From: a virus
IMG/VR virus record: IMGVR_UViG_3300048033_000482
Span: 1 to 25,250 of that record
Direction: 5' to 3' (one strand)
Length of the DNA stretch: 25,250 nt
The notes beneath the pieces are model-generated. The model saw only the letters and a list, made by a program, of their open reading frames with translations. It searched no databases and was not told the DNA's origin. How positions within the stretch are numbered: position 1 is the stretch's first letter; every line of letters starts with the position of its first letter. Position numbers and translations under genes: made by a program. This document shows, one piece after another, positions 4,255-7,900 of the stretch.

Positions 4255-4340
4255 GCTACTGTGGTGGAATTGGTAGACACGAGGGACTTAAAATCCCTTG
4301 AACAGTAATGTTCGTGTGGGTTCGACTCCCACCAGTAGTA
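4255..4340 (+). tRNA. tRNA-Leu (anticodon TAA)
   Basis: The cloverleaf is complete. The acceptor GCTACTG pairs with CAGTAGT (one G-U). The anticodon stem AGGGA/TCCCT encloses loop CTTAAAA, giving anticodon TAA. A long variable arm (GAAC/GTTC) is typical of class II Leu tRNAs, and the T arm is GTGGG TTCGACT CCCAC. The discriminator is A, as expected for Leu. CCA is not encoded. It reads UUA, a codon frequent in these AT-rich genes. Confidence 0.96.
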
Positions 4341-4342
4341 CT

Positions 4343-4433
4343 AAAGAGAGGTAGTGAAGCTACAATGATATAGAAAAAGGTAAGGGTTAACCTCTATATC
4401 GTAGTAACCCCGAAAGACCCGAAACCTCTCTTT
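4343..4433 (+). ncRNA. candidate pseudoknotted spacer RNA 2
   Basis: The whole spacer between tRNA-Leu and tRNA-Arg is closed by a 9-bp stem, AAAGAGAGG (4343-4351) with CCTCTCTTT (4425-4433). Inside are a small TAG/CTA hairpin (4352-4362) and an 8-bp stem, GATATAGA (4367-4374) with TCTATATC (4393-4400). The loop of that stem contains GGGTTA (4384-4389), which is exactly complementary to TAACCC (4405-4410) and would form a 6-bp pseudoknot. No known family is recognised. The outer stem followed by T-rich sequence could alternatively aid tRNA processing. Confidence 0.55.
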
Positions 4434-4436
4434 TAT

Positions 4437-4513
4437 GCACCCGTAGCTCAGCTGGATAGAGCAACGCACTTCTAATGCGTAGGTCATAGGTTCGAATCCT
4501 ATCGGGTGTACCA
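4437..4513 (+). tRNA. tRNA-Arg (anticodon TCT)
   Basis: Acceptor GCACCCG/CGGGTGT, D arm GCTC...GAGC, anticodon stem ACGCA/TGCGT with loop CTTCTAA (anticodon TCT), and T arm ATAGG TTCGAAT CCTAT. The discriminator A is followed by an encoded CCA (4511-4513), unlike the other two tRNAs. It reads AGA, the favoured Arg codon in this AT-rich sequence. Confidence 0.96.
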
Positions 4514-4515
4514 AA

Positions 4516-4597
4516 GAGCGGGTAAATAGTTCAGTACACCTCTGCAGGGGTAAATGTAAGTTACTGTTAATAGGACGACGTATCCTAACGACTGCTC
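4516..4597 (+). ncRNA. candidate structured spacer RNA 3
   Basis: The spacer between tRNA-Arg and tRNA-Ser is closed by GAGCGG (4516-4521) with CTGCTC (4592-4597). CAGTA (4532-4536) pairs with TACTG (4562-4566), enclosing ACCTC/GGGGT (4538-4542 and 4547-4551). A hairpin TAGGA (4571-4575)/TCCTA (4583-4587) has a 7-nt loop, the same geometry as a tRNA T arm. The octamer GGGTAAAT occurs twice (4520 and 4548). It could be a degenerate, D-armless tRNA-like structure, but no tRNA identity can be assigned. Confidence 0.5.
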
Positions 4598-4601
4598 GAT
4601 T

Positions 4602-4686
4602 GGAAGATTGGCAGAGTGGTCGATTGCACTGGTCTTGAAAACCAGCATACCGAAAGGTATCGTAGGTTCGAATCCTACATCTTCCG
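4602..4686 (+). tRNA. tRNA-Ser (anticodon TGA)
   Basis: Acceptor GGAAGAT/ATCTTCC and anticodon stem CTGGT/ACCAG with loop CTTGAAA (anticodon TGA). A long variable arm (TACC GAAA GGTA) and discriminator G are both typical of tRNA-Ser. The T arm is GTAGG TTCGAAT CCTAC. CCA is not encoded. It reads UCA. Confidence 0.96.
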
Positions 4687-4706
4687 CAAAAATATTTTAA
4701 AAAAGA

Positions 4707-4745: not shown

Positions 4746-5018
4746 ATGAGATGGGAAACTGTACATATAACCGATAAAATCCATTACCTTAAAAGGTTAG
4801 TGGAAAACTCTACTGATAAAGAAGATACTGATATCTACATTATTCAGGCGTTGATTACAGGTTCTTTAAACACCAGAGATGCTGATGATGAATATGGATT
4901 CGAAATTCAACCACATCACATTAAGTTTATGAGAAAGTTATGGAATACTGCTATCGAAACTCAAAAAGATACATCGGTAGTAGATTCTATAAATATTGAA
5001 ATGCGGAAGAGGGGTTAA
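4746..5018 (+). CDS. hypothetical protein, 90 aa
   Basis: An in-frame TTG at 4728 overlaps the promoter -7 region, so I choose the ATG at 4746. The protein begins MRWETVHITDKIHYLKRLVE and is hydrophilic and helical, with a segment GFEIQPHHIKFMRKLWNTAI. I recognise no family. Its last five codons and stop (5001-5018) overlap the 5' strand of the first tRNA-like RNA. The transcript from 4707 therefore carries both this gene and the two cloverleafs, so RNA processing would cut close to its stop codon. Confidence 0.62.
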   Translation: MRWETVHITDKIHYLKRLVENSTDKEDTDIYIIQALITGSLNTRDADDEYGFEIQPHHIKFMRKLWNTAIETQKDTSVVDSINIEMRKRG

Positions 5019-5074
5019 GAGAAACCCGTCTGACATCCAGTCAGAAGAAGTTGGGGCAGTACCAACCTTCCGCT
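5003..5074 (+). ncRNA. non-canonical tRNA-Gly(UCC)-like cloverleaf, copy A
   Basis: The fold is an exact cloverleaf: acceptor GCGGAAG (5003-5009)/CTTCCGC (5067-5073), linker AG, D-type stem GGGTT/AACCC with loop AAGAGA, G, anticodon-type stem TCTGA/TCAGA with 7-nt loop CATCCAG, 4-nt variable region, T-type stem GTTGG/CCAAC with 7-nt loop GGCAGTA, then T at position 73. The middle of the anticodon loop reads TCC (Gly). U8, the D-loop GG, U33 and the T-loop TTC are all absent, and CCA is not encoded. Copy B repeats the fold with compensatory changes. Whether it is charged, or is a decoy or cis-acting mRNA structure, cannot be read from the sequence. Confidence 0.75.
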
Positions 5075-5079
5075 CAACT

Positions 5080-5151
5080 GCGGGAAAGGAGTTAAGAGAA
5101 ACTCGCCGTACTTCCAGTACGGAGATGGTGGGGCAGTTCCACCTTCCCGCT
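5080..5151 (+). ncRNA. non-canonical tRNA-Gly(UCC)-like cloverleaf, copy B
   Basis: This has the same 71-nt layout as copy A: acceptor GCGGGAA (5080-5086)/TTCCCGC (5144-5150), AG, D-type stem GAGTT/AACTC with loop AAGAGA, G, anticodon-type stem CCGTA/TACGG with loop CTTCCAG, variable AGAT, T-type stem GGTGG/CCACC with loop GGCAGTT, then T at 73. The acceptor stem and T73 match those of E. coli tRNA-Gly as I recall it, and the loop has U33 and anticodon TCC. Relative to copy A, seven base pairs changed on both sides (acceptor 2, D 1, anticodon 3, T 1) and none is broken. Confidence 0.75.
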
Positions 5152-5174: not shown

Positions 5175-5513
5175 ATGGATTATAAGGAAATTCACAAACT
5201 AATGGAAATCCAATATCTAACGGGAAGGTTAGATGAACTCTACAAAGGATATGTTCCAGCCCATACCTCAACATCTCAGAGGTTTATTGATAGTCGTATA
5301 TCTAAATACGAAGATAAGTTAATGAACTTAGACCCCATCGCATTTCATTTATATAAGGTGCAGCATAATAATGTTAAATTCTCTAAGAGAAAATCCAAAG
5401 CAAAGATATCAGCGTTACTATCTACCATCAAAGATGTGTTGATTGATGAGTTCGGTTGTGAGGAAGATAATAAGTTGGTAGAACAAATTAATCAACAATT
5501 AAATACATACTGA
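5175..5513 (+). CDS. hypothetical protein, 112 aa
   Basis: The ATG at 5175 follows the second cloverleaf by 23 bases. The protein is hydrophilic and mostly helical, starting MDYKEIHKLMEIQYLTGRLD, with a basic middle (KFSKRKSKAKISALL) and an acidic, Asn/Gln-rich C-terminus. No motif is recognised. No promoter is visible between the cloverleafs and this gene, so it is probably read from 4707 together with them. Confidence 0.62.
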   Translation: MDYKEIHKLMEIQYLTGRLDELYKGYVPAHTSTSQRFIDSRISKYEDKLMNLDPIAFHLYKVQHNNVKFSKRKSKAKISALLSTIKDVLIDEFGCEEDNKLVEQINQQLNTY

Positions 5514-7702: not shown

Positions 7703-7900
7703 ATGAAAAATTATCAAGCGATTTTATTAGTAATGGTTGGGTTCGGATTAGGTATCGGTACTGCGGCTGGAAAGGTTCAATCAGTAATTCATTTTGCGGG
7801 TGCCGCCAATGAGATGGGGTTCGCATTTATGGGTATCCTAATTGGTATGTGTGGTTTGTTTGCCATTAATTACAGAAAACTACTGAAAGGTTTAAATTAA
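7703..7900 (+). CDS. small membrane protein, 65 aa
   Basis: The protein starts MKNYQAILLVMVGFGLGIGT and has two hydrophobic segments (about residues 6-24 and 38-56, MGFAFMGILIGMCGLFAINY) joined by a short loop, with a basic C-terminus RKLLKGLN. This indicates a two-helix inner-membrane protein. Gly-rich helices suggest close packing or oligomerisation. It forms its own transcription unit between the promoter at 7618 and the one at 7925. No family is recognised. Confidence 0.65.
   Translation: MKNYQAILLVMVGFGLGIGTAAGKVQSVIHFAGAANEMGFAFMGILIGMCGLFAINYRKLLKGLN

Follow-up and report, generated by a model that had tools for sequence, protein, structure and literature searches.

A covarying family of tRNA-Gly-like phage RNAs is linked to mom genes and may carry glycine for DNA modification

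Two tandem 71-nt elements in a phage genome fragment are members of a conserved, covarying family of structured RNAs resembling glycine tRNAs, and in several Mom clades this family is linked, physically and genomically, to the gene for Mom. The fragment (hereafter the window, an IMG/VR phage contig of 25,250 bases) encodes gp25, ClpP, UvdE, an MGS-domain protein and an AAA protein. Judged by the sequence features that they keep and lose, the RNAs are probably glycine tRNAs that can be charged but cannot be used in translation, and for the two elements we consider a dedicated role in DNA modification likely, as glycine tRNAs outside translation that act as a glycyl carrier feeding Mom.

The original prediction of two plus-strand cloverleafs with the geometry 7/2/5-6-5/1/5-7-5/4/5-7-5/7 was borne out in position, geometry and loops (Table 1), and direct comparison showed its count of seven compensated differences between the copies (acceptor 2, D 1, anticodon 3, T 1) to be right. 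The cloverleaf is the fold of each copy taken alone (-30.0 kcal/mol for copy A, -32.1 kcal/mol for copy B). C35-C36 had been ascribed to copy B, which does have them, but they are not specific to it: copy A has both bases as well. The 77-nt repeat spacing of the window copies is also found in related phages (L004, L005, L006, L008, L009, L011 and L012). Standard tools pass over these elements: ARAGORN calls only tRNA-Leu, tRNA-Arg and tRNA-Ser in the window, leaving copies A and B uncalled, and the Rfam tRNA model RF00005 (cut-off 29 bits) gives no match, even at E = 10, for the copies of the window, of the Pelagibacter phage Mosig or of locus L102. Only one relative, in locus L306, passes RF00005 (32.4 bits). 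Rfam 15 has no entry for the family, its models giving no more than chance matches both at the gathering threshold and at E = 10.

Table 1. Features of the window in and around the two tRNA-Gly-like RNAs
Feature	Position	Strand	Details
tRNA cluster	4255-4687	+	canonical tRNA-Leu(UAA), tRNA-Arg(UCU), tRNA-Ser(UGA); just 5' of copies A and B
Upstream small ORF	4746-5018	+	90 aa from ATG 4746 (listed as 96 aa from TTG 4728)
Copy A, tRNA-Gly-like RNA	5003-5073	+	71 nt; fold z -4.6; R1 95.4 bits, E 1.9e-25
Copy A acceptor stem	5003-5009/5067-5073	+
Copy A D arm	5012-5027	+	loop AAGAGA
Copy A anticodon arm	5029-5045	+	loop CATCCAG 5034-5040; anticodon UCC 5036-5038
Copy A T arm	5050-5066	+	loop GGCAGTA; U73 = 5074
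Linker between copies	5074-5079	+	TCAACT, 6 nt; U73 of copy A and 3' flank
Copy B, tRNA-Gly-like RNA	5080-5150	+	71 nt; fold z -4.0; R1 97.2 bits, E 5.8e-26
Copy B loops		+	AAGAGA, CTTCCAG, GGCAGTT; anticodon UCC 5113-5115; U73 = 5151
Downstream ORF	5175-5513	+	112 aa; begins 20 nt past copy B match

The stop codon of the upstream small ORF (TAA, 5016-5018) falls inside the D arm of copy A; counterparts of this ORF, 51-63% identical, occur in eight related loci (L003, L005, L006 and L008-L012), and all eight stop within the D arm of the first RNA copy. The downstream ORF is conserved in L005 and L009, with the same 20-nt gap, and in L003, where it lies 12 nt past the single copy. Pfam searches with the upstream and downstream ORFs gave no match for either. 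Within the tRNA cluster, the spacer between tRNA-Leu and tRNA-Arg (4342-4436, plus strand) holds a long imperfect hairpin, AAGAGAGG...CCTCTCTT (-25.4 kcal/mol, z -3.7), which is possibly a further stable RNA of the cluster; the fold of the adjacent spacer (4514-4601) is unremarkable (z -1.1).

The family was collected with search patterns in which the loop letters were fixed and the stems left free. In the alignment of 43 distinct copies, 98.4% of pair cells hold a standard pair, as against 38-48% when it is slid; two-sided changes are seen at 18 of the 23 pairs; and the covariation score is 0.77 (0.21 when shuffled). A covariance model termed R1 gave 107 matches across 86 viral loci, scoring up to 99 bits, and only three weak matches (18-35 bits) in 83 chance-match loci totalling 736 kb. 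Members are also present in metagenome-assembled contigs of Planctomycetota, Elusimicrobia and Deltaproteobacteria, and in the cultured Pelagibacter phage Mosig EXVC030M. The Mosig copy (L217 2457-2532; record 7779-7854) lies inside the annotated CDS Mosig_000011, probably a spurious ORF, has the T loop GGCAGTA, and includes a 25-nt stretch 92% identical to T4-type tRNA-Gly genes. Several candidates were discarded along the way: the pattern TCCAG..AGA..GGGCAGT gave chance matches only; apart from chance cyanophage matches (antisense in gp14), blastn of the region against named phages returned a true relative only in Mosig; and matches in RaK2 and Muenster proved to be canonical tRNA-Gly.

Across 86 distinct copies G1:C72, C2:G71, U73, C35 and C36 are invariant, and no search pattern required the acceptor pairs or U73; later patterns did require CC in the anticodon loop, and an early loop pattern free of that requirement has CC there in all its true members. 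G3:C70 is present in 82 of the 86, and 20 encode CCA after U73. The glycine identity set of bacterial GlyRS matches these invariant positions (PMC9976931), and all 86 copies carry the determinants of a GlyRS substrate. Features needed by an elongator tRNA (U8, GG18-19, T54-T55-C56 and U33), on the other side, are lost or variable: position 8 is A in every copy; 78 have AAGAGA, without GG18-19, as their D loop; nearly all T loops consist of GGCAG or GGCGG and two further bases, without TTC54-56; and position 33 is free (T 46, A 29, G 6, C 5). The wobble position 34 is C in 40, U in 32 and A in 14. Hence the original label of a tRNA-Gly(UCC)-like RNA stands for glycine but not for UCC, which is not specific, and its claim of a non-canonical elbow is strongly supported by the loss of U8, the D-loop GG and the T-loop TTC. 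Among its three functional guesses, charged glycine carriers outside translation fit best, as the GlyRS determinants are invariant and those of the ribosome and the elbow are gone.

Variants of these RNAs were met in several records. Canonical tRNA-Gly(GCC) genes lie directly 3' of two aberrant copies in L127 (1385-1458) and L129 (9930-10003), so that both kinds stand side by side. In L351 (2054-2132) and L369 (about 2078-2155) the tRNA-Gly-like gene linked to Mom has A73 instead of U73; A73 is a feature of tRNA-Gly paired with alpha2-type GlyRS, and the discriminator base may follow the GlyRS type of the host. Two jumbo phages, G340 and G342, encode aberrant tRNA-like RNAs (L531 1501-1576 and L536 1501-1571) with the T loop GGCAGTA and CCA, whose anticodon loops (TTCGTAA and TTGGTAA) are not NCC; these are perhaps carriers for other amino acids.

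GC-rich members of the family are placed at the end of a Mom gene (PF25680, E 1e-41 to 1e-46; PHROG 1384). Against a PF25680 cut-off of 27.1 bits, the RNA-linked ORFs score 142-158 bits and those of the large phages 131-177 bits. An iterated Mom HMM was derived after masking of the RNA, replacing a version that still took in the tail encoded by the RNA. This HMM matches 74 of the 103 RNA loci, in every case on the strand of the RNA, and has no match in loci without the RNA. Mom lies within 600 nt of the RNA in 72 of the 103, upstream of it in 68 and downstream in four (L179, L181, L194 and L200). In large phages the RNA is tens of kilobases from mom: all eight RNA-bearing IMG/VR records longer than 110 kb, several of them near-identical, encode two or three Mom genes at other places. 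A fixed 2:2 ratio of RNA to Mom copies was considered and dropped, as 1:2, 1:3 and 2:2 all occur. In Mosig, the RNA is present and Mom was not detected.

The window too lacks a recognizable mom gene within its 25 kb, and its phage is most likely a mom-bearing one whose fragment was cut short, mom being predicted from near-complete relatives. Two such relatives of 167-173 kb (G015 and G021) encode two Mom genes each; their AAA protein is 70-72% and their gp25 51-55% identical to those of the window, and the RNA about 4-6 kb before the AAA gene is an order common to all three.

Where the two genes adjoin, the RNA begins at the first codon position of the mom frame in all 72 loci of the first set, a phase that we ascribe to common descent of two overlapping genes; translation across the RNA may have a role in these loci. 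A purely protein-coding reading was considered, since many copies have an open frame 1 that runs on from mom, and was rejected: other copies have stops in this frame, the pairs covary, and trans-encoded Moms have no such tail, so that the conserved unit is the RNA. The same overlap, together with that of copy A and the stop of the upstream ORF in the window, could instead point to an element acting in cis on mom or other mRNAs (in processing, stability or translation control), whose tRNA likeness serves only RNase P/Z cutting or a regulatory fold. This guess of the original prediction fits poorly, because the RNA can stand on either side of its partner gene or far away from it; moreover, GlyRS determinants are unnecessary for a cis fold, and several of the trans RNAs have stops in the frame that the tail would occupy. 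We regard it as very unlikely.

The linkage was also approached from the opposite side, with Mom protein baits that hold no RNA information, which gathered three Mom clades of 67, 80 and 74 loci (221 in total). Of the 67 loci in the phiEf11-like clade, 33 have an R1 match at the 3' end of Mom (E 7e-18 to 0.041), and at this same position ARAGORN calls tRNA-Gly (UCC, ACC or CCC) in five loci and an unnamed tRNA-like gene in one; tRNAs of other kinds number only four across all 221 loci. A scan for GlyRS features, which itself demands GC ends, U73 and a CC loop and so gauges enrichment and not conservation, detects them at 39 of the 47 distinct 3' ends of this clade's Mom genes, as against 0.92 when shuffled and 1 of 94 neighbouring windows. 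The Mom 3' ends form a series running from ARAGORN-called tRNA-Gly through four-armed forms to D-arm-less forms of 63-66 nt, most with encoded CCA. Further afield, a search in trans of 15 Mom-bearing large or mid-size records found a tRNA-Gly-like RNA in four (one with two ARAGORN-called tRNA-Gly genes), and a tRNA-Gly(UCC) passing the Rfam threshold comes after a Mu-like Mom in genome G250 (L306). Among 298 genomes of a Planctomycete class, ten have a strong RNA match and all ten have Mom, which occurs in just 17 of the 298; seven of the ten were previously known, which may be why they entered the set, and a test on the three new genomes by themselves gives a Fisher p of 3e-5. On the Mom tree, the RNA-linked proteins are spread over several separate clades.

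The coupling is not universal. In the two other Mom clades the RNA is near mom in 2 of 80 and 0 of 74 loci, R1-type RNA is absent from the Mom-bearing named phages examined (Mu, Listeria, Melnitz, P12002L and others), and no RNA was found 3' of mom in Mu, JD024, phiEf11 or Psychrobacter Y8A; Mom is therefore not always dependent on a phage-encoded carrier, and phages without the RNA may use host tRNA-Gly or another donor. Some Mom genes carry a DUF465 label or no annotation in public records (L243 2468-3277 in Melnitz; L245 1501-2145 in Edwardsiella phage ABTNL-9).

The tRNA-Gly genes that ARAGORN calls at some mom 3' ends (L306, L346, L351, L353, L370 and L375) would suit ordinary, if divergent, phage tRNA-Gly serving translation, with the mom adjacency a matter of hitchhiking or the relic of an integration site. 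Yet most copies lack U8, GG18-19 and TTC54-56, some lack the D arm, and U33 is free; ACC anticodons are present, which to our knowledge are not normally used for glycine in bacteria; L127 and L129 hold canonical tRNA-Gly(GCC) beside their aberrant copies; and an integration relic would not be expected to be glycine every time, in the orientation of mom and placed at the YPK end of Mom across many clades. We regard this origin as highly improbable.

The remaining guess of the original prediction, a decoy or sponge, supposes that charged or uncharged tRNA-Gly mimics absorb defence toxins such as the toxSAS FaRel2 or the GNAT TacT, and that RNA and mom adjoin since both are counter-defence genes. 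FaRel2 picks tRNA-Gly/Thr by G1:C72, C2:G71 and pairs 4 and 5, and phages are known to deploy tRNAs against tRNA-targeting defence (PMC11559606); TacT reads U73 and G71 (PMC9976931); the RNA is conserved at its first two acceptor pairs and U73, and Mosig carries it without Mom. Acceptor-stem toxins need no anticodon, however, yet C35-C36 are as invariant as the acceptor positions, and because they are fixed far from the acceptor stem such a decoy fits less well. NCC loops moreover survive in the D-arm-less forms, the RNA begins at the last Mom codons in many clades, and it was recovered by a fetch based on Mom only. We judge the decoy unlikely.

We therefore favour a glycyl carrier for Mom, under which the RNAs would have descended from tRNA-Gly, keeping the features read by GlyRS and losing those of the ribosome and elbow, with some relatives losing the whole D arm. 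Each would be expressed as a discrete RNA and loaded with glycine by the host GlyRS; the phage Mom, a GNAT-fold transferase, would accept the glycyl group and place it on the adenine N6 of phage DNA. The Mom product is known to add C2H3NO to adenine, giving an N6-carbamoylmethyl group of glycinamide type. N6-glycyl-adenine is an isomer of that product; an intramolecular rearrangement might turn one into the other, and passage through a five-membered ring is chemically plausible. An AlphaFold model of an RNA-linked Mom (pLDDT 91) has Mu Mom (8bv8) as its nearest PDB entry. Glycyl-RNA is proposed as donor because a chargeable, non-translating tRNA-Gly is coupled to a GNAT enzyme whose product adds C2H3NO. 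Several observations weigh against it: RNA and Mom copy numbers are not one to one; in certain jumbo-phage RNAs the T loop of the family is combined with an anticodon loop that is not of glycine type; Mosig carries the RNA but no detected Mom, Mu a Mom but no such RNA, and the window contig has no mom; and published opinion prefers an acyl-CoA donor such as glycyl-CoA (PMC7824862).

Four known systems are closest. With bacterial tRNA-Gly (T4-type UCC and E. coli), the phage RNAs share the conserved acceptor pairs, U73, C35-C36, the cloverleaf and, in part, CCA; they differ in lacking U8, in the D loop AAGAGA without GG, the T loop GGCAGUU, and the free U33 and wobble position, in the missing D arm of some, and in escaping ARAGORN and Rfam. 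The non-translational tRNA-Gly of staphylococci is chargeable, unfit for translation and gives glycine to a GNAT-like transferase (pentaglycine, FemXAB). The phage RNAs likewise have lost the D-loop GG and retained GlyRS identity, but their proposed acceptor is DNA, not peptidoglycan, and the family is far more degenerate, phage-borne, and found beside mom instead of fem genes. Pfam, PHROG and structure all identify the RNA-linked proteins as Mom, the family of Mu Mom (PF25680); Mu mom differs in being accompanied by the zinc-finger regulator com and by no tRNA-like gene. TacT is a GNAT that recognises glycyl-tRNA-Gly via U73 and G71 (PMC9976931); it acetylates the amino acid on the tRNA from CoA, whereas here glycine would pass from RNA to DNA.

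Our search for a Mom-tRNA link covered the open-access literature, with preprints and subscription journals outside that scope, and found none. For the donor of the Mom group an acyl-CoA is the published guess, and the coupling of the RNA to mom in several clades makes the question of the donor directly testable. The glycyl-carrier reading also predicts what Mu Mom itself may use: as a tentative extension, which we rather doubt, all Mom enzymes, Mu Mom included, might use glycyl-tRNA, from the host or as a dedicated phage RNA, with RNAs of the L531/L536 type possibly serving other amino acids. The family adds to phage biology an RNA missed by standard tRNA finders, together with D-arm-less tRNA relatives, and, if the reading is true, there would be a class of DNA modification in which the amino acid is delivered by a tRNA.
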